64,000 nucleotides of DNA, taken from Sphingomonas sp. BT-65. GTDB lineage: Bacteria > Pseudomonadota > Alphaproteobacteria > Sphingomonadales > Sphingomonadaceae. The DNA is taken from positions 620,001 through 684,000 of the forward strand of contig NZ_JAPCIA010000001.1 in assembly GCF_026107375.2 (NCBI RefSeq), in the 5' to 3' direction. Shown here in pieces: positions 6,342 to 36,013 of the stretch (the first letter of the stretch is position 1; every line of letters begins with the position of its first letter). The notes under the pieces were generated by a model. The model made no database searches. It was not told the DNA's origin and worked only from the letters and a program-made list of their open reading frames with translations. A program made the position numbers and the translations under genes.

Positions 6342-6390
6342 CGGGTGCCCGGCCCTGCCGAACGGGTAACGGGGGATGGTTTCCGGGTAA
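6342..6390 (-). promoter_or_regulatory. Triple 21-bp-spaced TTACCCG-type boxes upstream of the hydantoinase operon
   Basis: On the plus strand CGGGTGC (6342), CGGGTAA (6363) and CGGGTAA (6384) lie exactly 21 bp apart, about two DNA turns. Read on the leftward strand these are TTACCCG boxes facing the hydantoinase gene. The same box pair occurs at five other sites in the window. It lies between the hydantoinase operon and the LAL regulator gene, so autoregulation is also possible. Binding by that regulator is an inference. Confidence 0.6.
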
Positions 6391-6495
6391 CCATCGAACC
6401 GCCGCTTGAGCGACATGATCGTGTAACATACCCTGTCCGGGCACGCCGCGAATTGCGGTGGGCAAAAGAGGGAGGCCGCAACGGGAAAACGCCCG

Positions 6496-9195
6496 ATGGA
6501 TGCGTTGATCCATACCAAGCTCGCGCCGCCCATGTGGATGGGTAATCAGATCAGGCGCGATCAGCTGCTCGCCCGCCTCGACGCGGCGCTGGAGCGGCGG
6601 CTGACGCTCATCCAGGCGCCGGCCGGGTACGGCAAGACCAGCCTGCTGTCGCAGTGGAAGGACCGGCTCGATCCCGATGCGGTGCGCGTCGCCTGGCTGA
6701 CGCTGGAGCGCGACGATTCGGACCTGCGCCGTCTCACCCGCTACATCGTCCGCGCGCTCGATGGCGCCGGACCGCACGACGGCGAGGAGGGCGAACATCT
6801 TGCCGCTGCCCTGCCTCCGCGCGCCGCGGTCTCGGCGATCGTCAACCGGCTGGCGCAGGAAAGCCGCCGGGTGGTGCTGATCCTCGACGATTACCACCGC
6901 GCCGAAAGCCCCGAGGTCGACGCCTTCGTACGTACGCTGATCCAGCTCGCGCCCGAACACTGCCATTTCATCATCGCCTCGCGCGATTATCCTTGGCTCG
7001 GCCAATCGATCCTCGCCGCCGAGGAGCAGCTGGTCGAGCTGACCGCCGACGATCTCAAATTCGCCGCGCATGAGGCAGAGGCGCTGCTGTCGCGCTTCCA
7101 AGGGCTGGGCGAGGCGGACGTGCGCAGCATCGTCGAGCGGACCGAGGGCTGGGCGATCGCGCTCCAGCTCGCCTCGTTGTCGCTCAAGCGCGGCGCCGAT
7201 CACCGGCGGCTGGTCGAGGAATTCCACGGCCCCAGCTCGGACCTTGCCCGCTACCTCTCTGAACAGGTGCTGATGACGATGCCTGCGGAGACGCAGGAGA
7301 TCGTGCTGCGCACCGCGTTGCTCGACCGGCTGACCGGCGACCTCGTCAACCTGCTGTGCGACCGCCAGGACGGCTGGATGATCCTCGAACGGCTCGAGGA
7401 GCAGGGTGTGTTCCTGACCCCGCTCAGCGCCGAGCGGAAAGCCTATCGCTACCACCAGCTCGTCGCCGAGCACCTGCGCGACCGCCTCGCCCGGCGCGAC
7501 GCGGCGCAGTTCCGCGCGCTCCACCGCCGCGCCGCACAGTGGTTCGCCGAGCGTAGCGAAACCGCCGAGGCAGTGAGCCACGCCATCCAGGCCGATGACG
7601 ACGCGATGCTCGCGACGATCCTCGAGGATGCGGGCGGCTGGCGGCTGATTCCGCTTGGGCATCAGGCGATGGTCGAGCGCGGCCTTGGCAAGCTGCCCGC
7701 CACGCTGATCGCCGCGCGTCCGCGTCTCGCACTCGCGCGCGTCTATCTCGAGATCAAGCGCGGCGAGATGGCGACCGCGCGCGCCGACTATGACCGCTTC
7801 GTTGCCGAAGCCGAGCGGGCGGGCCTTTCCGCTGACCAATGGGCCGAAATCCGTGTCGTCGGCGACGTGCTCGCCGATTACGAGAACGAACCCGTCACGC
7901 TCGACGATCTGCTCGCGCGCGAATCGCTGCTGCGCACCCTCCCCGCCAACGACCATCTCGTCCTCGCCAACATCAGCGAGACGCTCGGCGCGAAATATTT
8001 CGAGGGCGGCTGGCTCGAACGCGCGCTGGAGCCGACGATCGCCGCGCGCGAGCATTATCTGGCGATGGACTCGCTCTACAGCGACGTCTTCACCCGTTTC
8101 CTCGAAGCGCGCATCCGCCAGGCGCAGGCGCGGATGAAGGATGCCGCGGGCATCCTCGCCGCGACACGCGAGCAGATCGAGGCGAATTTCGGTCCGCGCT
8201 CGGACCTCGCCGCCAATTGCGCCGCGTTCGAGGCCGAGCTGCTCTACGAACAGGATCAGCCCGCCGCGGCGCTCGCTTTGCTCGACTGGGCGGTGCCGCA
8301 TATGGAGCTGTCCGACGGCTGGACCGATGTCTACGCCGCGGCCTACCTGACCGCCGCGCGCGCCGAGGCATCGGAAGACACGCTCGACGCCGCGCAGGCG
8401 ATCCTTGCACGGGCGCGGCGCCTCGCGGGACGGCGGCGGCTGCGCCAGCTCGATCTGCGCGCAGCACTGTGCGAGCTCGACCTGCTGATTCAATATGGCG
8501 ACGATCCGGCGGAGGCCCATAAGGCCGCGGAAGCGCTCGACCTCGATGTGCTCGCCGACCGGGACGAGGAGGATTCGACGGTCCACCGCCCGGTCGTCAC
8601 CGCCGCGCGCCTGTGCCGCGCGCGGCTGGCGCTGACCGGCGGCGATCATGCCGCCGCGCTTGCCGATCTCCAGAAGCTCAGGCGCTGGGCTGCGCAGCAC
8701 GGTGCCGGGCGCCTGCTCGTCGATACCAATATCCTGCTCGCTTACGGCCACCGCGCTGCGGGCGACGCCGCCAAGGCGCGTGCCTGTTTCGACGATGCCG
8801 TCGGCACCGCGATGTTCCAGAATATCGCGCGTCCCTTCATCGACCAGCGCCGCTTCGCCGAACCGCTGCTGAGCGAGACGCTGGGCGGCACCGCGCAGCT
8901 CGACCGCTTCCGCGCGCAGTTCCTGAAGGGCATCGCCCGCTCGCTCGCGGCCCGGCCCATCGCCGGCCCCGCGCCCGGCCTGCTCAGCGACGCCGAGGCG
9001 GAGATCCTCGAGCATCTCGGCTTCGGCTACTCGAACAAGGAAATCGCACGGCTGATCGGCATGTCGCCCGATACGGTCAAATACCGGCTCAAATCGGTGT
9101 TCCGGAAGATCGGCGTGCACAAGCGCCGCGATGCCGTGCGGGTGCTGCGTGAGCGCGGACTCATTTCCGACGGCGCGGGTCAATCGGCCGCCTGA
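6496..9195 (+). CDS. MalT-like LuxR-family (LAL) transcriptional activator
   Basis: Protein of 899 aa, close to E. coli MalT in length. A STAND-type ATPase has Walker A APAGYGKTSL at residues 41-50 and Walker B VVLILDDYH near 128-136. A long helical TPR-like region follows, and a C-terminal LuxR helix-turn-helix lies at about 833-890 (LSDAEAEILEHLGFGYSNKEIA, SPDTVKYRLKSVFRKIGVHKR). Such proteins bind ATP and an inducer, oligomerise and bind tandem DNA boxes. It is divergent from the hydantoinase operon and followed by a TonB receptor. Tandem TTACCCG boxes flank these genes and are candidate targets. The inducer is unknown. Confidence 0.92.
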   Translation: MDALIHTKLAPPMWMGNQIRRDQLLARLDAALERRLTLIQAPAGYGKTSLLSQWKDRLDPDAVRVAWLTLERDDSDLRRLTRYIVRALDGAGPHDGEEGEHLAAALPPRAAVSAIVNRLAQESRRVVLILDDYHRAESPEVDAFVRTLIQLAPEHCHFIIASRDYPWLGQSILAAEEQLVELTADDLKFAAHEAEALLSRFQGLGEADVRSIVERTEGWAIALQLASLSLKRGADHRRLVEEFHGPSSDLARYLSEQVLMTMPAETQEIVLRTALLDRLTGDLVNLLCDRQDGWMILERLEEQGVFLTPLSAERKAYRYHQLVAEHLRDRLARRDAAQFRALHRRAAQWFAERSETAEAVSHAIQADDDAMLATILEDAGGWRLIPLGHQAMVERGLGKLPATLIAARPRLALARVYLEIKRGEMATARADYDRFVAEAERAGLSADQWAEIRVVGDVLADYENEPVTLDDLLARESLLRTLPANDHLVLANISETLGAKYFEGGWLERALEPTIAAREHYLAMDSLYSDVFTRFLEARIRQAQARMKDAAGILAATREQIEANFGPRSDLAANCAAFEAELLYEQDQPAAALALLDWAVPHMELSDGWTDVYAAAYLTAARAEASEDTLDAAQAILARARRLAGRRRLRQLDLRAALCELDLLIQYGDDPAEAHKAAEALDLDVLADRDEEDSTVHRPVVTAARLCRARLALTGGDHAAALADLQKLRRWAAQHGAGRLLVDTNILLAYGHRAAGDAAKARACFDDAVGTAMFQNIARPFIDQRRFAEPLLSETLGGTAQLDRFRAQFLKGIARSLAARPIAGPAPGLLSDAEAEILEHLGFGYSNKEIARLIGMSPDTVKYRLKSVFRKIGVHKRRDAVRVLRERGLISDGAGQSAA

Positions 9196-9224: not shown

Positions 9225-9252
9225 TTACCCGTCTTGCGCTTCTCTTACCCCG
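9225..9252 (+). promoter_or_regulatory. Tandem TTACCCG / TTACCCCG boxes upstream of TonB receptor
   Basis: TTACCCG at 9225 and TTACCCCG at 9245 are 20 bp apart, about 120 bp before the receptor ATG at 9374. The spacer resembles that of the pair at 14304-14331 (both have CTTGC after the first box). Likely an activator site for the MalT-like regulator encoded just upstream. Confidence 0.6.
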
Positions 9253-9373
9253 ATAAACGCGTGGCTCGACGGCCGATCCGGGTTTGAATGCTGCGGGAGG
9301 ATCGAACCGCGCAACATAGGTGCGGAAGAACGATCCCGTCGGACATATAAATTTCGGGGAAGGGCTTTTGATC

Positions 9374-11473
9374 ATGAGCACACGGATCGGACTTTACGGC
9401 TCGGCGCGCAGGCTGCGCGGCGCGCTGCTTGCGGCATGCTGCCTCGCGGCGCTGCCCGTTGCGGCCCAGGAAGCGGAGCCCGCGGTCGAGAACGAGGACG
9501 TCACCGTCATCGGCACGCGCGCGCAGACCGGTACCAAGACCGACGCCGCGCTCACCGAAATCCCCCAGTCGATCAGCATCATCACCGCGCAGGAGTTCAA
9601 CGATCGCGCCGCGGTGAACCTGCAGGACGTGATCCGCTACAGCGCGGGCGCCGCCAGCGAGCTCAACGGCGTGGACACCCGTGGCGATTTCCTCGCGGTG
9701 CGCGGCACCGGCGCCGAACAGTATCTCGACGGCCTCAACCGCATGCCCGGCTTCATCTATGGCGGGCGGCTGGAGATCTTCACCGTCGAGCGCGCCGAAC
9801 TGCTGCGCGGTCCCTCCTCGACGCTCTATGGCGGCGGCGGCGCGGGCGGCATCCTCAACTCGGTGAGCAAGCGGCCGAAAACGACTTTCGGCGGCGAGGT
9901 CGGGCTGATGTACGGCACCGATGATCTCAAGCAGCTTCAGTTCGACATCACCGGCCCGCTCGCACCCGGACTGTCCGCGCGGTTTGTGGGTCTCGTCCGC
10001 GACGGCAATCTCCAGCAGGAATCGCAGCGGAACGACCGCATCACGGTGATGCCCGCGATCACCTTCAAGCCCGGCCCGGATACTGAAGTCACGTTCATCG
10101 GCGTCTATCAGCGCGATCGCCTGGGCAGCCAGACTTATTTGCCGACAAGCAAGACGATCGACGCCACTGGCCCTGAGCGCATCTCGCACGACTTCTATCT
10201 CGGCGAGCCGGGCTTCAACCACACCCTCGCCGATTATTATGCGGCGACTATCCTGCTGACGCACAATTTCAGCGACCGGTTCAGCTTCAACAGCCGCAAC
10301 CGCTTCTTCGAGCAGGACGTCGATTATCAGGAGGTGTTCGGTTACACCGGCTTCGGCGGCGCCTATGCCGATGCGGCGCGCACCATCGCCAACCGTGCCT
10401 GGTACCTCAACCGCGCCCAGTATAACGGCTTCAACAGCGACAATAACTTGGTACTGAGCTTTGACACCGGGCCGCTGACCCACCAGATCCTCGCTGGCTT
10501 CGACTATACCTCGTTCCGCGAGGACAAGGAGGAAGGCTTCGGCCAGGCCCCAGGCCTCAATCTCTACGATCCGGTCTATGGCGTCCCCTTCGTCACCGGC
10601 GTGGGCTGGAAGACGGACACCAAGAACTCGCAGCTGGGCTTCTACTTCCAGAACCAGATCCGTGCATGGGATCGTGTCTCGCTCGTCTTCGGCGCGCGGC
10701 ACGACAATGTCCGCTCCAACGTCAACGGCGTCCAGCTCGAGGACAACAAGGCGTGGAGCTTCCGCGCTGGCATCATCGCCGATGTGGTCAAGGGCGTGTC
10801 GCCCTATTTCAACTATTCCGAGTCCTTCCTGCCGGTGTTCGGCTCGAACTTCTTCGGCGTCCCCTATGTGCCGCGGACCGGCCGCCAGTATGAAGCAGGC
10901 ATCAAGTTCCAGCCTTCGTCGCGCATGCTGTTCACCGTCGCGGCGTACGACATCAAGGAACAGAACATCCTGATCGCCGACCCGAACGAGCTGCAGAACT
11001 TCATCCAGGGCGGTTCGTCGCGCTCGCGCGGTGTTGAAGCGGAAGCGAACATTCGCCTGCCGGGAGATTTCAGCCTAACCGCCTCCTACAGCTACACCCG
11101 CGCCGAATATCTCGTCGTCGACGGCCGCCGGCGCGGCGATCGGCGCGAGAACCTGCCCGAGCATCAGGCCTCGGCCTGGGCGACCAAGGGTTTCGACCTC
11201 GGCGGCGATCTCGGGGCCAAGGTCGGCGCGGGCGTGCGCTACCAAGGCGACAAGGTGAGCTTCGACCAGCTCTACCGCATCGCTCCGGTGACGCTGGTCG
11301 ATGCGATGGTCGAGCTCAACTATCAGGATTGGACGCTGTCGGTGAACGGCGCCAACATCTTCGACAAGAAGGTCTACACCAACTGCAGCTACTCCGGTCC
11401 TCCGATCGACGAGGGCTATTGCTACATGGGCAAGGACCGCACGATCATGGCCTCGCTCCGCCGCAAATTCTGA
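9374..11473 (+). CDS. TonB-dependent siderophore-type outer-membrane receptor
   Basis: Protein of 699 aa with a signal peptide ending at PVAAQ. A TonB-box-like segment (EDVTVIGTRA) precedes the plug domain (EIPQSISIITAQEFNDRAAVNLQDVIRYS, split across about residues 55-85; VRGTGAEQYLDGL) and a 22-strand type barrel ending in aromatic F (LRRKF). No STN domain, so it is not a FecR-type signaller. The ATG at 9374 begins the signal peptide. It is followed after 60 bp by an amidohydrolase, and tandem TTACCCG boxes lie upstream. The family suggests ferric siderophore uptake, but catabolic operons often use such receptors for other ligands. Confidence 0.92.
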   Translation: MSTRIGLYGSARRLRGALLAACCLAALPVAAQEAEPAVENEDVTVIGTRAQTGTKTDAALTEIPQSISIITAQEFNDRAAVNLQDVIRYSAGAASELNGVDTRGDFLAVRGTGAEQYLDGLNRMPGFIYGGRLEIFTVERAELLRGPSSTLYGGGGAGGILNSVSKRPKTTFGGEVGLMYGTDDLKQLQFDITGPLAPGLSARFVGLVRDGNLQQESQRNDRITVMPAITFKPGPDTEVTFIGVYQRDRLGSQTYLPTSKTIDATGPERISHDFYLGEPGFNHTLADYYAATILLTHNFSDRFSFNSRNRFFEQDVDYQEVFGYTGFGGAYADAARTIANRAWYLNRAQYNGFNSDNNLVLSFDTGPLTHQILAGFDYTSFREDKEEGFGQAPGLNLYDPVYGVPFVTGVGWKTDTKNSQLGFYFQNQIRAWDRVSLVFGARHDNVRSNVNGVQLEDNKAWSFRAGIIADVVKGVSPYFNYSESFLPVFGSNFFGVPYVPRTGRQYEAGIKFQPSSRMLFTVAAYDIKEQNILIADPNELQNFIQGGSSRSRGVEAEANIRLPGDFSLTASYSYTRAEYLVVDGRRRGDRRENLPEHQASAWATKGFDLGGDLGAKVGAGVRYQGDKVSFDQLYRIAPVTLVDAMVELNYQDWTLSVNGANIFDKKVYTNCSYSGPPIDEGYCYMGKDRTIMASLRRKF

Positions 11474-11533: not shown

Positions 11534-13267
11534 ATGTTGAACCTGACCCGTCCCGCCCGCTTCGCCGCGTTCGCGCTGCTGATGGCGGGGATCACCGGTG
11601 CCGCGCAAGCACGCGACCGCGTGACCGCCGACACAATCCTGACCAATGCCCGCATCTACACCGTCGACAAGAAACAGCCCTGGGCCCAGTCGGTCGCGAT
11701 CAGGGACGGCAAGATCGTCGCGGTCGGCCCCGCAGCGGCAGTGGCGAAGACCAGGGGCGTGAAGACCCGCATCGTCGATCTCGGCGGCCGCCTCGTCCTC
11801 CCCGCCTTCGGCGACGCCCATGCGCACCCGCTGTTCGGCGCGCTCTCCAAGACGCGCTGCTCGCTCCACGACGGCAAGACAATCGAGGATTACAAGCGCA
11901 TCATAGCCAAATGCGTCTCCGACACGCCGGGCACCGGCACTGTCTATGGCGTGGGCTGGGAGGATTCGCTGTTCCCGCCCAACGGCGTGCCGAACAAGGC
12001 GATCCTCGACGCGATCTCCACCACCCGCCCGTTGATCTTCGACTCGGTCGGCGGCCATACCAACTGGGTGAACTCGAAGGCGCTCGAGCTGGCGGGCATC
12101 ACCAAGGATACCCCCAACCCGGTCAACGGCACGATCGACCGCGATCCCGCGACCGGCGAGCCGGTCGGCAGCCTTCAGGAATCAGCGCAGGCGCTGGTCG
12201 CCGAGCTGATCCCGCCGCCCACCGACGCCGATTACCAGAGTTCGATCCTCTACACCGCCAGGCTGTTCAATAGCCTCGGCATCGTCGCCTGGAACGATGC
12301 GGGGGTCGAGTTCGACGATGCCGGCGGCAGCCGCATGGTCGACGCGTACAAGGCGGTGAAGGACGCGGGCAAGCTCACCACCTATGTCTCGGTCTCGCTC
12401 AAATGGAAGAATGAGCGCGGGATGGATCAATTCCCCGGCCTGCTCAAGGCGGCGGAACGCGCCAACGCGCTCGGCATCCCGACCCACACGGTCAAATTCT
12501 ATGTCGACGGCGTGATCCCGCAAAAGACCGCGTACATGCTCGCGCCCTATGAGGGTGATACCCAGCGCGGCGCCCCGCAGATCGCGCCCGACACGCTCAA
12601 GCAAGCCGTCACCGCGACCGACGCGAAGAGCATGCACGCCTTCCTCCACGCGATCGGCGACGGCGGGGTGCGGCTCTCGCTCGATGCGGTCGAGGCGGCG
12701 CGCAAGGCGAATGGTGCGAAACCGACCTACCACATGGTGACGCACCTCAATGTCGTCGATCCGGCCGACCAGCCGCGTTTCGGCCGGCTCGACACCTATG
12801 CCCAGTTCCAGCCGACCTGGTCGTCCTGGTACCCCTATATGGAGCTGACCGAGGCGGCGATCGGCAAGAAGCGGATGGAATATATCTATCCCGCGGGCAG
12901 CATCGTCCGCGCCGGCGGCAAGCTCGCTTATGGCGCCGACTGGCCGGTCGCGACCGCCAACCCGCTCGAAGGGCTGGAGGTCGCGATCACGCGTCAGGTG
13001 GCGGGCGACCCCAAGGCGAAACCGCTGGTCGCCAGCGAGGGCGTGTCGCTCGCCGAGGCGATCGAGAGCCACACGCTCAACGTCGCCGCCGTCAACGGCA
13101 TGGCGAAGTTCACCGGATCGCTGGAGGCCGGCAAGAACGCCGACCTCGTCGTGCTCGACAAGGACATCTTCAAGCTGCCGGTGCACCAGATCAGCAAGGC
13201 GAAGGTGCTGGTCACCCTGTTTCAGGGCAAGGCGGTGTACGGCGATCTGGGGGCGTTGAAGCCTTGA
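11534..13267 (+). CDS. YtcJ-type metal-dependent amidohydrolase, exported
   Basis: Protein of 577 aa with signal peptide MLNLTRPARFAAFALLMAGI..., cleaved near AQA-RDR. An amidohydrolase fold is recognisable: N-terminal strand (ADTILTNARIYTVDKKQPWAQ), metal motif HAH in LPAFGDAHAHPLFG, HxxxDGGVRLSLDAVE-like region and C-terminal PLEGLEVAITRQV, ENADLVVLDKD-type end. YtcJ members hydrolyse amide or formamide bonds of poorly defined substrates. GGAGAG lies seven bases before the ATG. It is probably co-transcribed with the TonB receptor, suggesting periplasmic hydrolysis of the imported ligand. Substrate unknown. Confidence 0.88.
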   Translation: MLNLTRPARFAAFALLMAGITGAAQARDRVTADTILTNARIYTVDKKQPWAQSVAIRDGKIVAVGPAAAVAKTRGVKTRIVDLGGRLVLPAFGDAHAHPLFGALSKTRCSLHDGKTIEDYKRIIAKCVSDTPGTGTVYGVGWEDSLFPPNGVPNKAILDAISTTRPLIFDSVGGHTNWVNSKALELAGITKDTPNPVNGTIDRDPATGEPVGSLQESAQALVAELIPPPTDADYQSSILYTARLFNSLGIVAWNDAGVEFDDAGGSRMVDAYKAVKDAGKLTTYVSVSLKWKNERGMDQFPGLLKAAERANALGIPTHTVKFYVDGVIPQKTAYMLAPYEGDTQRGAPQIAPDTLKQAVTATDAKSMHAFLHAIGDGGVRLSLDAVEAARKANGAKPTYHMVTHLNVVDPADQPRFGRLDTYAQFQPTWSSWYPYMELTEAAIGKKRMEYIYPAGSIVRAGGKLAYGADWPVATANPLEGLEVAITRQVAGDPKAKPLVASEGVSLAEAIESHTLNVAAVNGMAKFTGSLEAGKNADLVVLDKDIFKLPVHQISKAKVLVTLFQGKAVYGDLGALKP

Positions 13268-13324: not shown

Positions 13325-14194
13325 TCACGGCCAGTTGACCGAAAACCGCAGCGTCGCGGGCACCGCGCGCACCGGCACGGTCATATGCCCCTCACCCGCG
13401 AAGATCTCCGATCGTGTGCGCAGGCCATAGGCCGACAGCGGCGCCGTGCGCTGGACGAAATCCTCGGCGTCCCAACGCTCGAGGATCGCTTCCTCGCGGT
13501 CGCCCGTCACGACCAGCAGCCGGCTGACCTTCGGCACCGTCCCGGCCTGAAGCCGGGCGGCGAAGTCGCGCTCTTCCTTCAGCGTCAGCGCCTCGTGCCA
13601 GAAGATCGACGGGCTCGCCGCGATGATCGCATGGAAGGCGCCGGGCCGCGTGTAGAGCGTGTGCAGCGCGAACAGCCCGCCCAGCGAATGGCCGAACAGC
13701 GACTGGCGGTCGGGGTTGGTCTTGTAGCGCCTGCCGATCTCGGTGCGCAGCTCGCCGGTCAGGAAATCGAGGAACCGGTCCCAGCCGCCGCTCTTCTCCC
13801 TGGCGAACTTGGCATAGGCGCCCGAGGTGGTTGGCGCGCCGGTGAAATCGTCGATCCGCCGCACGTCATAGGCTTCGTCGGTGGGATAGCCGACGCCGAC
13901 AACGATCGCCTTGTCGCCCGGTGACCATTCCATCATCCGCCGCGTCTCGGCGAAGGACGCGAACAGCGCGTTGCCGTCGAGCACATAGAGCACCGGATAG
14001 CCGCCCTCGGGCGGAGCCGCCTTGGGGAAGGATACGAAAATGCGATAGATCTGGCCGTTCGCGGCCTTCATGTCGAACGCCGCGGTCTGCGGCATGGTGT
14101 AGCCGGGCGCGGTAGACGCCGCTTGCTGCGCTTGCGCCGCCACCGGAAATGCCAGCGCCATCGCACCCGCCAGCCTGATCCATTTGCGCGCCAT
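13325..14194 (-). CDS. Secreted alpha/beta hydrolase, IroE/Fes-like esterase family
   Basis: Protein of 289 aa with a signal peptide ending near AAQAQ. The putative-esterase fold has strand YPVLYVLDGNALF, nucleophile elbow GHSLGG (Ser about 170) and a late acidic/His region (VTGDREEAILE; AGEGHMTVP). The relatives include trilactone siderophore hydrolases such as IroE, and other S-formylglutathione-hydrolase-like esterases. ATG at 14194 follows GGGGAG by six bases. It is divergent from the 14441 gene, with mirrored TTACCCG pairs between them. With a siderophore-type receptor and PiuC nearby, ferrisiderophore hydrolysis is plausible but unproven. Confidence 0.85.
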   Translation of the reverse strand: MARKWIRLAGAMALAFPVAAQAQQAASTAPGYTMPQTAAFDMKAANGQIYRIFVSFPKAAPPEGGYPVLYVLDGNALFASFAETRRMMEWSPGDKAIVVGVGYPTDEAYDVRRIDDFTGAPTTSGAYAKFAREKSGGWDRFLDFLTGELRTEIGRRYKTNPDRQSLFGHSLGGLFALHTLYTRPGAFHAIIAASPSIFWHEALTLKEERDFAARLQAGTVPKVSRLLVVTGDREEAILERWDAEDFVQRTAPLSAYGLRTRSEIFAGEGHMTVPVRAVPATLRFSVNWP

Positions 14195-14264
14195 CGCCAA
14201 CTCCCCGGCCTGTTTCGTGTCACCTCAGGCTAGCCCCGCCGCCGCGCCGGCCAAACCCCGCCTG

Positions 14265-14291
14265 CGGGTAATGCCGGGATGAGCCGGGTAA
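14265..14291 (-). promoter_or_regulatory. Tandem TTACCCG boxes facing the esterase gene
   Basis: CGGGTAA at 14265 and 14285 (plus strand) read as a TTACCCG pair with 20-bp periodicity on the leftward strand, about 70 bp upstream of the esterase ATG. It mirrors the pair at 14304-14331. Confidence 0.6.
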
Positions 14292-14303: not shown

Positions 14304-14331
14304 TTACCCGCCTTGCCCGGTCGTTACCCCG
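14304..14331 (+). promoter_or_regulatory. Tandem TTACCCG / TTACCCCG boxes facing the 14441 gene
   Basis: TTACCCG at 14304 and TTACCCCG at 14324 lie 20 bp apart, about 110 bp before the ATG at 14441. The two pairs in this divergent intergenic region form a symmetrical arrangement centred near 14298, as expected for activation in both directions by one regulator. Confidence 0.6.
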
Positions 14332-14440: not shown

Positions 14441-15067
14441 ATGCAGAAATTTACGGTGAAGCTCTGGTCGGCCGCCGGTGCCGCCGCAGCGGCCACCACG
14501 CTCGCCGCCCCGGCTGCTGCGGAGGATGGCCCGCCGCCCGCCATCCCCGCTCCGACCGACACCGTCTACCCCACCGGCTTCGATAAGGCGCTGTCGCTGA
14601 TGCTTGCGGGCGAGGGCGGCGAGAACGGCATCGGCGTGCACAAGGTGTGGCCGACGCTGATGTTCCCCGCGCTCACCACCGATCAGATCAGCAAGGCGGT
14701 GACCGGCAACTCGCTCGTCATCGCGTATCACTACACCCACCAGTACGGCGCGGACGGACGCGTCGGCGGCTACAATATCCGCTACGATGCCGTCGACGTG
14801 AAGAAATGCCCCAAGATCGAAGTGCCCGGCGACGGGCTGCTGCTCTACGAGGGCGTGTGCAGCGCACAGGTCAGGGAACCCGTCACCGGCAGCTGGAAGG
14901 CGCAGGACCACAAGCTCTGCGTCGACATCCGCTGGGGCAAGGACGGGAAGATCGACGGCTGCTATTCGATGTTCTTCGTGATGGACAGCGTGGCGATGGT
15001 GAAGCCCGACGGCGGCGTCTCGGGCAAGGCTCATGCGCTGAAGAAGGGCGCGGCGCCAGACATGTAG
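14441..15067 (+). CDS. Secreted protein of unknown function
   Basis: A 208-aa protein with signal peptide (MQKFTVKLWSAAGAAAAATT... to PAAAE). It has two likely disulphide cysteines around DVKKCPKIEVPGDGLLLYEGVCSAQ and another pair in HKLCVDIRWGKDGKIDGCYSMFF. I do not recognise the family. GAGGAGGG lies 8 bases before the ATG, which fixes the start. It sits 11 bases before the dioxygenase gene and is surely co-transcribed with it. Placement under the TTACCCG boxes ties it to the receptor/esterase regulon. It may be a periplasmic partner of the uptake system. Confidence 0.8.
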   Translation: MQKFTVKLWSAAGAAAAATTLAAPAAAEDGPPPAIPAPTDTVYPTGFDKALSLMLAGEGGENGIGVHKVWPTLMFPALTTDQISKAVTGNSLVIAYHYTHQYGADGRVGGYNIRYDAVDVKKCPKIEVPGDGLLLYEGVCSAQVREPVTGSWKAQDHKLCVDIRWGKDGKIDGCYSMFFVMDSVAMVKPDGGVSGKAHALKKGAAPDM

Positions 15068-15078
15068 AGGGGAGCGCC

Positions 15079-15750
15079 ATGTTCATCTGCATCCCGGATA
15101 TCCTGAGTTCCGCGCAGCTCGCGGAGCTTGCCGTGCAGATGGACCGGCAGTCCTTCATCGACGGGCGCGAGACCGCGGGCTGGGCCGCCGCCGGGGTCAA
15201 GGAGAACACCCAGGTCGCCGCCGACTCCCCCGGCTATGCCGCGATGCAGGCGATGGTCGCGGGGGCGCTGGCGGCCAGCCGCATCTTCGCGATGGCGGCG
15301 ATGCCGCGGCAGATGCGGCCGATCCTGTTCAGCCGTTACGGCCCTGGCATGGGCTATGGCCCGCATGTCGACAATGCGCTGATGGGCGAGGCGCCGCAGA
15401 TGCGGATCGACCTCGCCTTCACCCTCTTCCTTTCCGATCCGGAGCGCTATGAGGGCGGCGAGCTCGAGATCGACGAGCCCGCGGGCACGCGCAGCTTCAA
15501 GCTGCCCGCGGGCGCTGCGATCCTCTATCCCGCCAATTCGCTGCATTGGGTGACGACCGTGACCGCGGGCCGCCGCGACGTCGCGGTCGGTTGGCTGCAG
15601 AGCCTGGTGCGCGAGCACGACAAGCGCCGCGTGCTGTTCGAGCTCGAGAGCCTCCGCGCGACGATGTTCGCCGAGAGCGGCAAGACGGCGGCCTTCGACA
15701 CGCTCTCGCGCAACACCAGCAACCTGTGGCGGATGTGGGCCGAACCCTAG
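15079..15750 (+). CDS. piuC: PiuC/YbiX-type Fe(II)/2-oxoglutarate dioxygenase (PKHD hydroxylase)
   Basis: Cytoplasmic 223-aa protein. The iron ligands are His96 and Asp98 in YGPHVDNAL and His156 in SLHWVTTV, with the 2-oxoglutarate arginine at 165/166 (GRRDVAVGW). Length and layout match PiuC/YbiX, whose genes commonly accompany siderophore receptors. AGAGGGGAG precedes the ATG. Its stop TAG interlocks with the stop of the convergent amidase in one CTAG (15747-15750). It probably modifies a siderophore-related or other imported compound; substrates of the family are not settled. Confidence 0.9.
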   Translation: MFICIPDILSSAQLAELAVQMDRQSFIDGRETAGWAAAGVKENTQVAADSPGYAAMQAMVAGALAASRIFAMAAMPRQMRPILFSRYGPGMGYGPHVDNALMGEAPQMRIDLAFTLFLSDPERYEGGELEIDEPAGTRSFKLPAGAAILYPANSLHWVTTVTAGRRDVAVGWLQSLVREHDKRRVLFELESLRATMFAESGKTAAFDTLSRNTSNLWRMWAEP

Positions 15751-17135
15751 GCGCCGAACGCCATCGGCGGCCAGCGATCGGCCCAGGGGCTCGCCACTTC
15801 CAGTTCTTCCCCGAGCCCCAGCAGCAGCTCGTCTCCGCCATGCCCGGCGGAGAACATCGCGCCCACAGGCAGCCCGCTCTCCCCCGCGAATAGCGGCAGC
15901 GAGATGCTCGGCGTCCCCGTCATGTTGTGCAGCGGGGTGTAGTTCACATAGCCGAACAGGGCGTCGAACAGCGCGTTCACGGGGCGCGTCGGCGCGAGAT
16001 GGCCGAGCGGCGGCGGCACGCTCGCGGTGACGGGCGAAAGCACCACATCGAAGCGCGCATGAAACCCGGCCAGCGCCGCCGATGCGCGATCGACCTGCGC
16101 CAGCGCCTCGGCGAGCAGCTCGGGTGTCACGCGCGCGCGCCGCTCGGCAAGGCCCAGCGTCCACGGCTCGAGCACCTCGCTCGCCCGTGCACCATAGTGA
16201 TCGACGGTCTCGCCACCGAGATAGTCCCACAAAGTCGTGAAGCCGGCACGCAACGCCGCGCGGTCGATCGGCTGGGTAACTTCCTCGACACGATGCCCCT
16301 GCGCCTCGCACAGCGCCGCCGCGCGCCGTACCACCGCCTCGACCTCTGTCTCTGGCTCGGTGCCGTCCATGCCAGTCAGGTCGAGCGCGATCCGCAGCTT
16401 GCGGCCCGGCGGCATCACCGCGCCCTTCTCCGCTGGGCGCAGCAGCCGCGCCGCCCAGACCGTGTCGCGCATCGAGCGGCCGTAGAGGCTGTCCGAGCAG
16501 AGGATGTCGTCGACCAGATTATAGGCCCGCGCGCGCACGTTCCAGCCGCGGCTGGGCTTGAAGCCGATGATCCCGCAGTTGGATGCCGGGATGCGGATCG
16601 ATCCGCCCGCGTCGCTCGCGGTGGCGAAGGGCACCAGCCCCGCCGCCACCGCCGCGCCCGCGCCGCTGCTCGATCCGCCCGAGCTGCGCGACAGGTCCCA
16701 CGGGTTGCAGGTCGGGCCGTAGAGCAGCGCCTCGCCGCTCGCGTTCAGCCCGAATTCGGGCATGGTCGACATGCCGACCGGCACCATTCCCGCGCGGTCG
16801 AGCGCCTGCGCCAGCGCAAAGGCGCGGCGGGCGACCTCGCCCTTCTTCGCACGCGACCCGGCCTCGCACGGGAAACCGGGATATTCGAGCGACGCCTTGA
16901 GCAGATAGGGCACCGCCGCCATCGGCGCGTCGCGATCGACCCGCGCCGCCGCCGCACGGGCATGGCCGAACGCGCGCACCGCGAGCGAATTGAGCGCGCC
17001 GTCGATCGCCTCGATCCGCGCGATCGCGGCCTCAACCAGCGCCTCGGGCGGCACGTCGCCGCGCCGCACCAGTTCGGCTTGGCCATGCCCGTCGAGCCGC
17101 GCGATCGCGTCGGCCTGCGCAAGCGTCATCGACAT
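15747..17135 (-). CDS. Amidase-signature enzyme
   Basis: Protein of 462 aa with the amidase-signature Ser-cisSer-Lys triad: Lys80 in [13 protein letters not shown], the glycine/serine-rich [10 protein letters not shown] loop (about 151-160) and nucleophile Ser179 in [12 protein letters not shown]. It hydrolyses a carboxamide; no signal peptide is seen. ATG at 17135 has GGGA nine bases upstream; a GTG at 17171 is less likely. The coding region ends in a stop overlapping that of the dioxygenase gene on the other strand. A box pair of the TTACCCG type lies upstream, but in the opposite orientation to the other cases. Confidence 0.9.
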
Positions 17136-17198
17136 GCGTATTTCATCCCAAAATTGCTGATCGATCTGCACAACGGGCTGGGCGATTCGTCCAGTCCG

Positions 17199-17226
17199 TC
17201 ACCCATTTGCCCGGCCGCGTTACCCG
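17199..17226 (+). promoter_or_regulatory. Imperfect TTACCCG pair upstream of the amidase
   Basis: TCACCCA at 17199 and TTACCCG at 17220 lie 21 bp apart, with a TTGCCCGG spacer like that at 14304-14331. It ends at the stop codon of the gene at 17227-18267 and is inverted relative to the amidase. Weaker than the other sites. Confidence 0.35.
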
Positions 17227-21819: not shown

Positions 21820-23301
21820 TCAAGCAGCGAAGGGATCGGGGAACTTCCCCGTGGTCGAAACAATGGTGGTCTTGGTCTCGAGGAACGGATCGAGCCCCTC
21901 GATCCCGTTCTCGCGGCCCCAGCCGCTCGCCTTCACCCCGCCATAGGGGGTGGACCAGCGGATGTAGCGATAGGTGTTGACCCACACCATGCCGGCCTGG
22001 ATCCGCGCAGCGACGCGATGCGCGCGCCCGGTATCGCCCGACCACAGCCCGGCGGCGAGGCCGTAGGGCGTCGAATTGGCGATCGCGACTGCTTCGTCCT
22101 CGCCCTCGAACGACATGATCGCGGCGACCGGCCCGAAAATCTCCTCCTGCGCAATCCGCATGTTCGCCGAGACCCCCGCGAACACCGTCGGCTCGACGAA
22201 ATAGCCGCCCGAGAGGCCATCGCGGTCGATCCGGCTCCCGCCCGTGACCAGCTCGGCACCCTCGTCCCGGCCGATGCCGACATAGGACAGAGTCTTGTCG
22301 AGCTGCTGCGCATGCGCCTGCGGCCCCATATGCGTCGCGGGGTCGAGCGGCATGCCGACCCGCACTCGCCCGGCGCGCTCGCGAAACGCCTCGACCACGC
22401 GATCATAAATCGAGCGCTCGACCAGCACGCGGCTCCCCAACGCGCAGCTCTGCCCGCACAATGCCCAGGCCGATCCGGTCGCGGCATTGAGCGCGTTCTC
22501 GATATCGGCGTCGGCGAAGATGATGTGCGGCGCCTTGCCGCCCAGCTCGAAGGTGCAGCGAGTCAGCGTATCCGCCCCCGCCTTCAGGATCGCCTTCGCG
22601 GTCGATCCCTCGCCGGTGAAGCTGATCTTGGCGACATCGGGATGCTCGACCAGCCGCGCGCCTGCCACCGTCCCGTCGCCCGGCACGACATTGACCACGC
22701 CCGGTGGAAATCCCGCCGCCTCGAACAGCTTCGCCAGCGCGAGCGACGAAGCCGGCGTCGATTCCGCGGGCTTCAACACCACCGTGCATCCCGCCGCCAG
22801 CGCAGGGCCGAGCTTCCACGCCGCCGCCATCATCGGCACGTTCCACGGCGTGATCGCCCCGACCACGCCGACCGGATGGCGCGTGGTGAAGGCATGGACG
22901 CTGTCGTCCATCGGGATGGTGCGCCCGCCCAGCTTGTCGGCGAGCGAGGCGAACCAGTGATAATATTGCGCGTGCAGACCGATATCGCCGCGCGATTCCC
23001 GCACCGCCCGGCCATTGTCGCGCGTCTCGATCTGCGCGAGCGCGTCGACCTGCGTCGTATAGAGATCGGCGAATTTCCGAAGCAGCGCGGCGCGCTCCCA
23101 CGGCGGCATCTTGCGCCAGGGACCCTCGAACGCCGTCTTCGCGGCGGCCACCGCGCGGTCGATATCTGCCGTCCCGCCGTACACGACATCGCCCCACGGC
23201 TCGCCCGTCGCCGGATCGATGCTCGGCCGCATGCCGCCATCAATCGGCGCCACCCATTCCCCGCCGATGAATAGCCTGTCGAACGTAAATCCGTCGAGCA
23301 T
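21820..23301 (-). CDS. NAD(P)+-dependent aldehyde dehydrogenase
   Basis: Protein of 493 aa of the ALDH superfamily. Conserved elements are TPWNVPMM (151-158), LKPAESTP (176-183), general base Glu252 in FELGGKAPH, nucleophile Cys286 in GQSCALGSR and EEIFGPV near 385. ATG at 23301 has GGAG five bases upstream. A perfect 8-bp palindrome overlaps this ribosome site (23309-23328). First gene of the set with the SDR, IclR and transporter genes. Confidence 0.93.
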   Translation of the reverse strand: MLDGFTFDRLFIGGEWVAPIDGGMRPSIDPATGEPWGDVVYGGTADIDRAVAAAKTAFEGPWRKMPPWERAALLRKFADLYTTQVDALAQIETRDNGRAVRESRGDIGLHAQYYHWFASLADKLGGRTIPMDDSVHAFTTRHPVGVVGAITPWNVPMMAAAWKLGPALAAGCTVVLKPAESTPASSLALAKLFEAAGFPPGVVNVVPGDGTVAGARLVEHPDVAKISFTGEGSTAKAILKAGADTLTRCTFELGGKAPHIIFADADIENALNAATGSAWALCGQSCALGSRVLVERSIYDRVVEAFRERAGRVRVGMPLDPATHMGPQAHAQQLDKTLSYVGIGRDEGAELVTGGSRIDRDGLSGGYFVEPTVFAGVSANMRIAQEEIFGPVAAIMSFEGEDEAVAIANSTPYGLAAGLWSGDTGRAHRVAARIQAGMVWVNTYRYIRWSTPYGGVKASGWGRENGIEGLDPFLETKTTIVSTTGKFPDPFAA

Positions 23302-23308
23302 CCCGACT

Positions 23309-23328
23309 CCATAAATTTCTATTTATGG
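23309..23328. promoter_or_regulatory. Perfect AT-rich palindrome in the ALDH/CaiB divergent region
   Basis: CCATAAAT-TTCT-ATTTATGG is a perfect 8-bp inverted repeat, strikingly AT-rich in a GC-rich context. One arm overlaps the Shine-Dalgarno region of the leftward aldehyde dehydrogenase. Likely an operator for a dimeric repressor; the IclR protein nearby is one candidate. Confidence 0.55.
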
Positions 23329-23377
23329 ACACATTAGTCTCTGCGTATGAATTTAAGTCAAGAAGGAGAGACGGGTA

Positions 23378-23901
23378 ATGCTGCCGCTGCTGGAGGGGAT
23401 TCGGGTCGAGGTCGGCGCGGTGGTGCTCGGCACCTATGCAGGGCAGATCCTCGCCGACTTGGGCGCGGGGTGATCAAGGTCGAGCCGCTCGAAGGCGACA
23501 TCGCCTGCAACGCCCACTCCTCGGGCAGCGGCGGCGGCGCGCTGTTCGTGAACAACAAGCGCATGCTCGCGCTCGACCTCAAGGCGCCCGCAGACCGCGC
23601 CGCGCTGGCCCGGCTGATCGGCACCGCCGACGTCCTCTTCCACAACATGCGCATCGACGCCGCCAAGCGGTTCGGCCTCGGCTTCGACGCGGCCGCGGCG
23701 ATCAACCCGCGCATCGTCCATTGCGCCGCGATCGGCTTCGGCCCTCGCGGCCCCTATCGCGACCGACCGGCGTTCAACGACATCATCCAGGCGACGAGCA
23801 GCATCGCAACCTCACCTGGCATCGCCCCGCGCGGGGCGGAATGCGGGTTCGACGAGGACGAGATCGAGGCGCTGATTGCTGGTGGCATCGCTAACGGCTG
23901 A
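23378..23901 (+). pseudogene. CaiB/BaiF (family III) CoA-transferase remnant, frameshifted and internally deleted
   Basis: ATG at 23378 follows AAGGAGAG and encodes MLPLLEGIRVEVGAVVLG..., the family N-terminus. The frame breaks at about 23470: GCGGGGTGATC stands where GCG-GAG-GTG-ATC is expected, a one-base loss giving TGA. The shifted frame continues with KVEPLEGD, NNKRMLALDLK, LFHNMRIDAA and IVHCAAIGFGPRG. It then jumps from DIIQATSS... to ECGFDEDEIEALIAGG, which is the C-terminal tail. Compared with the intact paralog at 43490-44713, roughly 230 residues are missing. The 3' end overlaps the convergent hydrolase by 11 bp. Confidence 0.88.
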
Positions 23902-33739: not shown

Positions 33740-33781
33740 TTGGTCCCGTCACGGGATCAACAGTTGGATGTTTTCCGATCC
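33740..33781 (+). promoter_or_regulatory. Conserved direct-repeat element, copy 1
   Basis: TTGGTCC (33740) and TTGGATG (33764) are 24 bp apart and continue into TTTTCCGATCC. Shared with copies at 36015 and 38546. TGGAT...ATCCA also forms an inverted repeat here. Lies immediately after the MocR stop and about 40 bp before the next ATG. Candidate MocR operator and promoter. Confidence 0.55.
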
Positions 33782-33821
33782 ATGACGAAGGCGGAGCTTC
33801 GGGCAAAAGGGAGGACAACAT

Positions 33822-34316
33822 ATGAAGCATCTCGCTCTCACTCTCGCCGCCTTGGCCCTGCCGCTGGCTCCCGCCACGGCGCAGGAGGCACCCAATCCCG
33901 CACACGCTCCGGCCACGCCCGAGGCCTGGCCCGAGGCATGGTTCGAGATCTTCAAGCTCGCGCCGGGCAAGCAGGAGGAGTTCATCCGTCGCATCGCGCA
34001 GGCGGACGAGGTCGCCGCGGCCGGCGGCCAGCCGCCGATCCAGCTCTTCTTCCATGAAAATGGCGCGGACTTCGACGTCATCATCTTCAAGCCCGTCACC
34101 GGCTTCAAGCCGACCGCGGCGCAGCAGGCGGCGATGGACGCCAAGCGTAAGGAACTGGGCATGGAGAGCGGCCCGGCCTATTTCGTCGGCATCCGCGAGC
34201 TGATCGCCGAACATACCGATTCCAAGACCTATGGCCCGCTCTCCGCCGCCAAATGGCTCGCGCGGCTCGACAAATGGCGGGCGGAGAACCCGCCGCGCAA
34301 GAAGGGAGGCAAGTGA
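33822..34316 (+). CDS. Secreted protein of unknown function
   Basis: Protein of 164 aa with a signal peptide ending at PATAQ. Mature part has FEIFKLAPGKQEEFIRRIAQADEVAAAGGQPP and IQLFFHENGADFDVIIFKPV, which resembles a small ferredoxin-like or dimeric-barrel fold; I do not recognise a named family. AAAGGGAGG precedes the ATG. Its stop overlaps the amidohydrolase start by one base (TGATG), so the two are translationally coupled. Confidence 0.8.
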   Translation: MKHLALTLAALALPLAPATAQEAPNPAHAPATPEAWPEAWFEIFKLAPGKQEEFIRRIAQADEVAAAGGQPPIQLFFHENGADFDVIIFKPVTGFKPTAAQQAAMDAKRKELGMESGPAYFVGIRELIAEHTDSKTYGPLSAAKWLARLDKWRAENPPRKKGGK

Positions 34317-35980
34317 TGCTCGGCCGCCGCGGACTTCTCGTGCTGGGCGCCGGCACCGCGGCCGCCGCGGTCACGCACCATGCCTTCGCAGCCGAGGGCG
34401 ACCTCGACACCGCCTATATCAATGCCCGCGTCTGGACCGGCGCAGGCCCCACCGTCCGCAGCGATGCGATCGGGGTGAAGGGCGACCGCATCGCCGCGAT
34501 CGGCGCCGATGCGGTCCGCGCGCGCACCGGCAAGCGCACCCGCGTGATCGACCTCAAGGGCGCGTTCGTCACCCCCGGCTTCATCGATCCGCACGTCCAT
34601 TTCGTGATGGCCTCGACGATGCTGTCGCAGCCCTCGCTGCGCGACGCCGCCAACCCGAAGGAGTTCGTCGAGCGCATCGCCGCAGCGGCCAGGACATTGC
34701 CCAAGGGCCAATGGCTCGAGGGCGGCAACTGGGATCAGGACCGCTGGGGCGGCGAGATGCCGCACCGCAAGTGGATCGATGCCGTCACCCCCGACACGCC
34801 GGTCGCGGTGGTGCGCTACGACCTCCACATGATGTTCCTCAACTCGCTGGCATTGAAGCTCGCGGGGATCGACCGCAACACCGTCGCCCCGCCGGGCGGG
34901 GTGATCGAGAAGGATGCCGACGGCGAACCTACCGGGATTATCAAGGACACCGTCAAGGAAATGGTCCTGCGCGCGATCGGCACCCCGACGCCCGAGCAGA
35001 TCGACGCGACGACGCGCAAGGGGATCGACCTCGCGCTGAGCAAGGGTGTGACACAGGTCCACCCGACCGAGCTCGAGACGATCAGCTTCGATTCGACTCG
35101 CCGCCTGCGCGAAAAGGGCGAGACCGGGCTGCGATTCCGCCACTATCTCCCGCTCAAGGATTGGGAGACGCAGGCCGCTCTGATCAAGGAACAAGGCCGC
35201 GGCGACGACTGGGTCCAGTGGGGCGCGTGCAAGGTGGTGTTCGACGGCTCGCTCGGCTCACGCACCGCGCGCTTCTACGAACCCTATCATGACGAGCCGG
35301 GCACGCGCGGCGTGATCGTCACCGATCCGGGCGATCTCAGGCGCTGGATCACCGGCGCGGACAAGGCCGGCATCCAGGTCACCGCGCACGCGATCGGCGA
35401 CGAGGCCAACGACATCGTCCTCGACACCTTCGCCGCCGTCGCCAAGGCCAACGGCCCGCGCGACCGCCGCTTCCGCGTCGAGCATGTCCAGCACATGAAG
35501 CCCGCCGCGATCCCGCGTTTCAAGGCGCAGGATGTGATCGCCTCGGTCCAGCCCTATCACGCGATCGACGACGGCCGCTGGGCGGTGCGCCGCATCGGCG
35601 AGAAACGGCTCGAGACCAGCTTCGCCTTCGGCTCGCTGGTCCGTTCGGGCGCGCATGTCTGCATGGGCTCGGACTGGCCGGTCGCGCCGATCGACCCGTT
35701 GACGGGGCTCGAGGCCGCGGTCGACCGCGAGACGATCGACGGCAAGAACCCGCGGGGTTGGTATCCCGAGCAGCGCGTCACGCTCGCCCAGGCGATGCGC
35801 TGCTACACGCGCGAAGGCGCTTATGCCGGCTTCAACGAGAAGAAGACGGGCCTGATCGCGCCCGGCCTGCTCGCCGATTTCGTGGTCTGGGATCGCGACT
35901 TTTTTGCGATTGACTCGCATTTACTTCTCAAGGCAAAGGCCCTCCGGACCATCGTGGGTGGCGTGCAGCGTTACGGTTGA
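34316..35980 (+). CDS. YtcJ-type amidohydrolase with Tat-like signal
   Basis: Protein of 554 aa. N-terminal MLGRRGLLVLGAGTAAAA has a twin-arginine and hydrophobic core. Metal motif HVH is in TPGFIDPHVHFV, and HAIGDEANDIVLD, FRVEHVQHM and GSDWPVAPIDPL follow the YtcJ pattern. It is paralogous to the 11534 gene. ATG at 34316 couples it to the secreted protein upstream. The conserved direct-repeat element precedes the pair and a TonB receptor follows, repeating the receptor-plus-amidohydrolase theme of the window. Confidence 0.9.
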   Translation: MLGRRGLLVLGAGTAAAAVTHHAFAAEGDLDTAYINARVWTGAGPTVRSDAIGVKGDRIAAIGADAVRARTGKRTRVIDLKGAFVTPGFIDPHVHFVMASTMLSQPSLRDAANPKEFVERIAAAARTLPKGQWLEGGNWDQDRWGGEMPHRKWIDAVTPDTPVAVVRYDLHMMFLNSLALKLAGIDRNTVAPPGGVIEKDADGEPTGIIKDTVKEMVLRAIGTPTPEQIDATTRKGIDLALSKGVTQVHPTELETISFDSTRRLREKGETGLRFRHYLPLKDWETQAALIKEQGRGDDWVQWGACKVVFDGSLGSRTARFYEPYHDEPGTRGVIVTDPGDLRRWITGADKAGIQVTAHAIGDEANDIVLDTFAAVAKANGPRDRRFRVEHVQHMKPAAIPRFKAQDVIASVQPYHAIDDGRWAVRRIGEKRLETSFAFGSLVRSGAHVCMGSDWPVAPIDPLTGLEAAVDRETIDGKNPRGWYPEQRVTLAQAMRCYTREGAYAGFNEKKTGLIAPGLLADFVVWDRDFFAIDSHLLLKAKALRTIVGGVQRYG

Positions 35981-35985
35981 AGCGC

Positions 35986-36013
35986 TTACCCGCCGTTGTT
36001 GCAAGATTACCCG
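35986..36013 (+). promoter_or_regulatory. Tandem TTACCCG boxes upstream of second TonB receptor
   Basis: TTACCCG at 35986 and again at 36007 are 21 bp apart, starting five bases after the amidohydrolase stop and about 140 bp before the receptor ATG. Same orientation and spacing as sites at 9225 and 14304. Candidate site for the LAL regulator. Confidence 0.6.

Follow-up and report, generated by a model that had tools for sequence, protein, structure and literature searches.

A putative LAL-type regulon with tandem TTACCCG boxes at TonB receptor and hydantoinase genes of Sphingomonas sp. BT-65

The best-known of the large ATP-binding LuxR-type (LAL) regulators is MalT, the activator of the Escherichia coli maltose regulon and the prototype of the STAND/LAL class. 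MalT is described as an activator that oligomerises with ATP and inducer and binds promoter sites cooperatively (PMC10427625), and its sites as direct repeats (PMC6099782). We analysed a 64,000-nucleotide stretch of the Sphingomonas sp. BT-65 genome (the window; contig NZ_JAPCIA010000001.1, positions 620,001 to 684,000, numbered here from its first letter), which encodes an LAL of 899 aa at 6496..9195 on the plus strand and carries a recurring tandem box, TTACCCG, beside genes for uptake and hydrolysis. The window LAL has the same architecture as MalT and an extended match to it; the two systems differ in that the window boxes are heptamers in 20-22 bp steps and stand before hydantoinase and TonB genes instead of maltodextrin genes. 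The MalT decanucleotide, GGGGA[TG]GAGG, is spaced more closely than the window boxes. The locus is best read as a new regulon, under a regulator of known class and with a distinct operator geometry, that would join TonB-dependent uptake to hydantoin-type ring hydrolysis.

Other described systems share single features with this locus. TpdR of Rhodococcus jostii TMP1, an LAL activator of tetramethylpyrazine degradation, also serves a catabolic operon through direct repeats near the promoter, but it is an actinobacterial protein of 788 aa with two 15-bp repeats, one over a -35 region, and the work on it concerns a single promoter, not a regulon of several (PMC6099782). PimR, a SARP-LAL of Streptomyces natalensis, is a large ATP-binding regulator whose operators each consist of two or three heptameric direct repeats, whereas its description ascribes binding to the SARP domain, gives spacers of 4 nt (or 3 nt), which makes about half the window step, and concerns secondary metabolism (PMC5930380). 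Regulators of the NarL/FixJ type have the GerE-type helix-turn-helix (HTH) in common with the window LAL; in contrast to them, the window boxes are direct repeats two turns apart and the window LAL is a putative ATPase-TPR sensor with no receiver domain among its Pfam matches. The TACC-like core of the boxes resembles the NarL heptamer. Literature searches on LAL or MalT with hydantoinase, TonB, sphingomonads or DUF917 found no description of this regulon, subscription papers being mostly outside their coverage; the TTACCCG matches listed concerned other subjects, and no operator or target for this LAL group was reported in the literature searched.

The LAL regulator and its tandem boxes

The LAL protein comprises an N-terminal STAND-type ATPase with Walker A (APAGYGKTSLL) and Walker B (LILDD) motifs (Pfam AAA_16, 40.4 bits against a cut-off of 32.6), a putative MalT-like TPR region at residues 477-784 (PF17874 TPR_MalT, E 2.6e-9; 37.3 bits, under the cut-off of 45) and a C-terminal GerE HTH at residues 830-883 (E 1.1e-11). 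The P-loop ATPase with both Walker motifs, and the GerE HTH in a protein of about 900 aa, are features that place it among the LAL regulators. The initial annotation had called the regulator MalT-like, which holds for its architecture: PDB 8bob matches residues 4-419 (E 8.8e-49) and the NCBIfam MalT model NF003420 matches at E 1.3e-96. By these matches MalT is its best-known relative, yet the LAL is not MalT; orthology was rejected since the score of 324.5 bits misses the curated cut-off of 537. The genes behind the boxes encode hydantoinase A, TonB receptors, the esterase and ORF235, and are not those of maltodextrin use. The HTH is near-invariant (SNKEIARLIGMSPDTVKYRLKSVFRKIGV) among LAL orthologs of about 60% overall identity and differs in LALs near 30%. 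Queried with this protein, its own genome gave four matches, one full length, and two others listed match the HTH only. LAL/STAND proteins can be numerous in the order, one relative having 16 matches to the window LAL. The relative G030 carries two more close LAL copies (G030:C19:40406-43096, 66%; G030:C23:125920-127554, 64%, matching only from residue 348), with a TTACCC-like pair near each.

The window contains 10 copies of TTACCCG, where 1.75 are expected (standard deviation 1.37; maximum 6 in 100 shuffles). Six tandem sites were reported by the initial annotation, and their coordinates and 20-21 bp spacing hold up and are far beyond chance. At 6342..6390 on the minus strand, three boxes point toward the hydantoinase operon, the first two perfect and 21 bp apart and the third, GCACCCG, another 21 bp on with two mismatches. 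The site at 9225..9252 (plus) faces the first TonB receptor gene (TonB1) and that at 14304..14331 (plus) faces the open reading frame ORF235 and a PiuC-like gene; both consist of TTACCCG and TTACCCC at 20 bp, or at 21 bp if the second box is read as TACCCCG. Perfect pairs face the esterase gene at 14265..14291 (minus, 20 bp) and the second TonB receptor gene (TonB2) at 35986..36013 (plus, 21 bp), the latter with TTGCAC 9 nt past the proximal box. An imperfect pair, TCACCCA and TTACCCG (21 bp, two mismatches), lies upstream of an amidase gene at 17199..17226 (plus) and does not face it; the other five of the six face their gene, in agreement with the count of five in the initial annotation. The tenth TTACCCG, missing from the earlier list, is a single box at 23372..23378 (minus), directly upstream of the near-consensus TTGACT -35-like element of an aldehyde dehydrogenase (ALDH) gene.

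A whole-genome scan had been proposed as a check, and it found that the pairs are not random and that exact ones are confined to the window. The exact pair TTACCCG-N13/14-TTACCCG occurs three times in the 4,077,375-base genome, each time within the window, and the backward-read control not at all. The looser TTACCC-N5..35-TTACCC (distances 11-41 bp) occurs seven times genome-wide: all five pairs at 20-21 bp spacing are in the window, and the remaining two lie outside it at 24 and 36 bp (backward-read control, six places). With up to two mismatches, there are 12 matches at spacing 20, three of them in the window (control 21), and 14 at spacing 21, six of them in the window (control 20). Pairs with no or one mismatch, three at spacing 20 and two at spacing 21, are found in the window only, whereas the two-mismatch pairs outside it (nine and eight) are fewer than the controls (21 and 20). 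The strong sites are therefore local in this genome, and weak matches elsewhere require no explanation.

The same distinction is made by a 13-column matrix. It was built without the window, from 76 boxes in other genomes, and its training pairs carried no more than one mismatch between them; scores of the window and of the background are independent of this training. The best pairs of the six window sites score 22.2-29.0; the pair including the third hydantoinase box scores 20.8, and one further window pair, at 635, scores 12.9. Elsewhere in this genome, over 14 stretches totalling 280 kb, four pairs reach 9, the best at 15.2.

Divergent from the LAL gene, the hydantoinase operon starts with a hydantoinase A/oxoprolinase family (HyuA-like) gene at 4645..6267 (minus; Pfam Hydant_A_N and Hydantoinase_A) and continues with genes for a DUF917/S-methyl-thiohydantoin desulfurase-like protein at 3552..4703 (minus; Pfam, NCBIfam) and an NCS1-type cytosine/purine/allantoin permease at 2227..3567 (minus; Pfam, NCBIfam). 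NCBIfam ties the DUF917 family to thiohydantoin desulfurases, the window protein being far under that cut-off. TonB1, at 9320..11473 (plus), is a siderophore-class TonB-dependent receptor (TIGR01783, above cut-off) whose closest equivalogs are FhuA and FoxA, with scores far under their cut-offs; downstream of it is an Amidohydrolase_3 protein gene at 11534..13267 (plus; Pfam). The putative esterase at 13325..14200 (minus; Pfam Esterase) weakly matches models of FghA and of enterochelin esterase. ORF235, at 14441..15067 (plus), encodes a putative exported protein of 208 aa from its given start, without a Pfam match; the operon-internal PiuC-like gene follows at 15079..15750 (plus), named by sequence reading here and in the initial annotation. 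A minus-strand PiuC frame (15031-15747) was rejected, as it has no family match and the PiuC-like frame is on the plus strand. The amidase (family search) is at 15747..17171 (minus), the ALDH at 21820-23301 (minus) and TonB2 at 35977..38322 (plus; likely start 36153, 3' of the boxes). Like TonB1, TonB2 passes the cut-off of the TonB-dependent siderophore receptor subfamily.

Boxes at orthologous genes and promoter register

In relatives, the boxes recur at the same genes. Relatives' loci were drawn by the LAL, and a facing pair was counted when a pair scoring at least 15 on the matrix lay within about 330 bp upstream of a homolog (at least 40% identity over at least 40% of the length, with at least 150 bases upstream). 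These counts are not independent of the matrix training, and they are of loci, not of independent events, several loci being close kin (Sphingopyxis, Sphingosinicella) and L040 and L047 coming from one metagenome bin. Here L041 was replaced by the G295 stretches, and G030p2, G030p3, G039 and G045 were left out; L034, a duplicate of G030:C56, and the short G295 locus, taken as the L041 genome, were excluded from the geometry and matrix counts. Facing pairs stand before 21 of 21 hydantoinase A homologs, 9 of 9 TonB1 homologs (in 8 genomes), 6 of 7 ORF235 homologs and 5 of 7 homologs of a further gene, ORF164. At the amidohydrolase_3 homologs they were found in 6 of 18: the six with boxes (L036, L037, L038, L040, L048, L051) have no TonB1 placed immediately upstream, and among the 12 without boxes TonB1 is immediately upstream in 11, with none placed in L049. 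In G295, boxes on two other contigs precede the ORF235 and ORF164 orthologs. The gene order flanking the LAL varies among genomes, so that the boxes stay with their targets, and the same operator precedes several transcription units, as in a multi-promoter regulon.

Genes internal to the operons lack facing pairs of their own (DUF917 0/22, NCS1 permease 0/22, PiuC 0/6). No facing pair was found at homologs of SDR (0/13), MFS (0/13), amidase (0/8), CoA-transferase (0/7), ornithine cyclodeaminase (0/4), the second amidohydrolase_3 (0/1) or pyrroline-5-carboxylate reductase (0/1), and none of at least 15 at AsnC (0/4, two at 13.5 and 14.2), MocR (0/2) or alpha/beta hydrolase (0/2). The initial annotation had treated all sites beside uptake or hydrolysis genes as one regulon; facing pairs recur at homologs of hydantoinase A, TonB1 and ORF235, and not at those of the amidase beside the 17199 site. 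The LAL gene itself is without a facing box in 22 of 22 loci, and positive autoregulation through such boxes is accordingly unsupported.

The spacing is equally constant. In 24 loci (630 kb, window included; G030p3, G039 and G045 left out), 38 TTACCC pairs lie within 60 bp of each other outside the hydantoinase promoter, 35 of them at 19-21 bp; the backward word gave no pairs and two made-up words gave 10 and 7, none at 19-22 bp. The intergenic region between LAL and hydantoinase was aligned in 27 rows, with one genome entered twice (L041, G295) and L050 having no such region. Most rows keep TTACCCG-N13..15-TTACCCGTTC-N-RCACCCGTTTT-N-CGCGTTGCG in diverged surroundings; G398 has two boxes, and the block is missing at that place in L040, G039 and G045.

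When promoters are aligned on the proximal box (17 hydantoinase, 17 TonB1 and amidohydrolase, 5 ORF235; 4 of the 21 hydantoinase promoters were excluded, the script having picked a proximal box other than CACCCG), the three families have a common register, with a conserved T at +17/+18 and, further on, an element at +40 to +45. The latter reads TTGAAT or TTCAAT in most TonB1-type promoters, including the -10-like TTGAAT at 9284..9289 (plus) of the window, and is TGTAAT-like in many hydantoinase promoters. The -35-like TTGCGG of the window hydantoinase promoter, at 6327..6332 (minus), lies 9 nt past the proximal box, and its TTGC is present in 17 of 17 aligned promoters. If the element at +40 to +45 is taken as the -10, the proximal box falls near -51 to -45, which we infer to be the place expected for an activator.

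The LAL locus is conserved over five orders, counting the one to which we take Caulobacter and Phenylobacterium to belong; 18 of the LAL loci are from named genomes, among them Sphingomonas, Sphingopyxis, Sphingosinicella, Caulobacter, Phenylobacterium, Henriciella, a Parvularculaceae bacterium and Niveispirillum. In the closest relative, an extra box pair lies about 45 kb from the LAL gene (L074:7352, minus; G392:C1:243351), and the open reading frame behind it starts, by our reading, like an exported FAD-dependent oxidoreductase.

Co-occurrence with the regulator and rival explanations

Occurrence of the operator tracks that of the regulator gene. In a sample of 396 genomes of the order, the LAL is present in nine (E <= 1e-150), with exact pairs, counted in what is apparently the same sample, numbering five in G000, two in G382, six in G392, two in G398, six in G295, one in G407 and none in G038, G039 and G045; five genomes besides the window's own have an LAL of at least 60% identity, G295 (apparently the same as L041) among them. 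Comparing genomes with and without the regulator gene had been suggested at the outset, and among the 46 same-genus genomes it gives 15 exact pairs in the four with the LAL, two to six in each, against one altogether in the 42 without. Fisher's test for at least two pairs gives 1/163,185 (calculated by hand, kinship ignored), and the backward control also gives 15 pairs, five in the four LAL genomes and ten in the 42 others. Among 61 relatives, the ortholog-bearing genomes, the window's own and G030, hold five and four exact pairs, the other 35 same-genus genomes two altogether. Starting from the boxes leads to the same place: two or more separate pairs on a single contig, at a distance of 1-60 kb, are found in five of the 396 genomes (G000, G382, G392, G398 and G295), all LAL-positive, in a search for clusters that made no use of the regulator and whose list was read by eye. 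G142 (a short tandem array) and G047 (overlapping pairs) were not counted as having separate pairs.

We consider it very probable that the boxes are operators of the LAL encoded at 6496-9195 and that this protein would activate a module for uptake and ring opening. By analogy with MalT, whose study supports such a mechanism, the LAL would take up an inducer and ATP and then oligomerise, and its HTH domains would dock on the direct repeats in 20-22 bp steps, that is, two helical turns on one face of the DNA. From a proximal box 9 nt upstream of a degenerate -35-like element, bound LAL could contact RNA polymerase, and this contact would activate weak sigma-70-type promoters. The predicted regulon is a substrate module comprising the hydantoinase A-DUF917-NCS1 permease operon, the TonB receptors and amidohydrolase, the esterase, ORF235 with the PiuC-like gene and, in relatives, ORF164. 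The initial proposal of an LAL regulon thus gains support, since the boxes accompany the LAL and stay with their targets through rearrangement and on other contigs.

Several observations weigh against this interpretation. At least one exact pair is also present where this LAL is absent, in 81 of 387 genomes (87 of 396 overall), many of these single-pair genomes belonging to other families, where the control columns are similar. Diverged LALs go with few or no exact pairs (G407, 60% identity, one; G038, 50%, none; G039 and G045, 39-40%, none), so that tracking is weak or absent at 50% identity and below, with G038 retaining a degenerate pair scoring 19.3. Facing pairs stand before only 4 of 21 esterase homologs, all four of at least 60% identity, 2 of 14 ALDH homologs and 2 of 7 PepSY homologs. 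Pairs on the opposite strand were found at amidohydrolase (5), ORF164 (4), PepSY (3), ORF235 (2) and TonB1, ALDH and amidase (1 each), and at 21 of 22 LAL genes, where they are the hydantoinase boxes. The window hydantoinase promoter reads CACCCT, a poor match, at its -10-like position. The 17199 site points away from the amidase and is the weakest candidate member of the regulon; it scores 23.8, higher than all of the background, and L035 has comparable boxes at the equivalent place, but an opposite-strand pair of at least 15 is present at only 1 of 8 amidase homologs. Finally, we infer LAL binding to the boxes, oligomerisation, activation and the substrate from sequence and from MalT. Because regulator, boxes and targets are inherited jointly and come and go together, co-occurrence alone cannot single out the LAL, and the comparison does not show which protein binds. 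Separating regulator from targets through ORF235 in LAL-negative genomes was impossible, ORF235 being present in 2 of 276 genomes of the order (the window's own and G295), both LAL-positive.

This joint inheritance would also suit a model in which the boxes are operators of another nearby regulator and the LAL is a bystander, which we consider unlikely. The window does encode an AsnC-type regulator (18438), a MocR/PdxR-type regulator (31868) and an ECF-type sigma factor with a FecR-type protein (525-2056), and the weak facing pairs upstream of AsnC homologs noted above are in L035 (14.2) and G392 (13.5). Against it, the box-bearing loci are mostly without these regulators in the stretches examined (AsnC in 4 loci, MocR in 2-3, LAL in 22, the loci having been drawn by the LAL), and the box-first search leads to LAL genomes. 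A FecR query placed none in the relatives' loci, and beyond that query the ECF-FecR pair was not sought systematically. We give slightly less weight again to an LAL that binds the boxes mainly as a repressor or architectural factor. The sign of regulation is read from sequence, which leaves room for it, but the boxes keep a fixed distance upstream of the -35-like element, clear of the core promoter, and MalT, the best-studied relative, is described as an activator (PMC10427625). It is extremely improbable that the repeats arose as chance words or by local amplification of an element without regulatory role. Two-mismatch pairs outside the window at or under control level and single exact pairs in genomes without this LAL speak for this reading; the concentration in the window, fixed spacing, facing orientation, promoter register and conservation at orthologs, including those on other contigs, contradict it, and chance words were rejected on shuffles, genome-wide counts, control words and the matrix background.

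Putative function, neighbouring features and related hydantoinase loci

Hydantoinase A together with DUF917 suggests hydrolysis of a hydantoin-type ring; DUF917 proteins are described in one paper as uncharacterised and suggested to be hydantoinases (PMC11055893). The module likely takes up a hydantoin-like compound or another cyclic amide and opens its ring. An iron flavour is given by the siderophore-class TonB1 and TonB2, the esterase, the PiuC-like protein, a PepSY protein and the ECF sigma-FecR pair, and a chelating cyclic-amide compound would fit both these genes and the hydantoinase-type hydrolases, so the substrate is perhaps a metal chelator. The coupling of TonB-dependent uptake with cyclic-amide hydrolases would make this a putative catabolic route. 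The case provides the box with its spacing and its register to the promoter, a list of targets with conservation across five orders and a comparison of genomes with and without the regulator, and on this basis the regulator, operator and inducer become directly testable.

The ECF-type sigma factor and FecR-type protein genes (minus strand) are at the left edge of the window, beside a module with siderophore-class TonB receptors. The single ALDH box has TTACCC or CTACCC similarly placed in several relatives and not in others, for example G382 and G398. In the ALDH upstream region (23302-23378, minus), relatives share an imperfect palindrome, GGACA-N-TGTCC, directly past the promoter; it resembles an operator and may serve a second regulator. 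A CoA-transferase family III open reading frame of 184 aa at 23347-23901 (plus) covers positions 26-147 of the 366-position Pfam profile; the gene could be incomplete, or its remainder could lie in a different frame.

Of the 396 genomes of the order, 46 have a hydantoinase A homolog, and 30 of their loci were fetched, seven belonging to the TTACCCG clade or G038 and 23 being others. A TTACCCG-type pair of at least 15 lies upstream in only 2 of these 23 (17.4 and 18.9), against 21 of 21 in the LAL clade. Their 250 bp upstream regions contain 41 copies of TACC against 22 in shuffles (largest 36), and eight TACC pairs spaced 20-22 bp, every one of them at 21, where shuffles give 0.2 (largest 3), with four further pairs at 42 bp and one at 63 bp; these were simple base shuffles, and related genomes were not thinned. 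The density of CTACC is 5.39 per kb upstream, compared with 0.32 within the coding sequence. In 6 of the 23 loci the hydantoinase is preceded, at 155-263 bp, by the end of a diverged LAL-type HTH, whose recognition region resembles TEHAVRYHLKNIY, not SPDTVKYRLKSVF. Among loci L098-L121 there are CTACC-type boxes in 21-bp steps, several loci having an inverted CTACY-N-RGTAG element further upstream; a clean ladder is not visible in every one of the 23.

With the pairing of box and HTH letters made by eye, the pattern suggests that these operator codes are related and share a single 21-bp ladder. It is quite possible, though on balance we slightly doubt it, that the LAL-hydantoinase modules of Alphaproteobacteria are a radiated regulator-operator family with one geometry (7-bp boxes at 21, 42 and 63) and letters changing with the HTH, TTACCCG here and CTACCC, CTACCG or CTACT elsewhere. 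If so, the ladder would reflect the way in which a STAND oligomer, with one HTH per two helical turns, sits on the DNA, and operator sequence, regulator clade and perhaps copy number would be readable from genomes and testable as orthogonal pairs. In a phylum sample of 398 genomes the LAL query (E <= 1e-120) found the window's own genome only. Relatives of the hydantoinase A with 68-73% identity (P0063, P0101, P0121) are named from Pseudoxanthomonas and Luteimonas, Xanthomonadales that lie outside the Alphaproteobacteria, and this suggests horizontal transfer.

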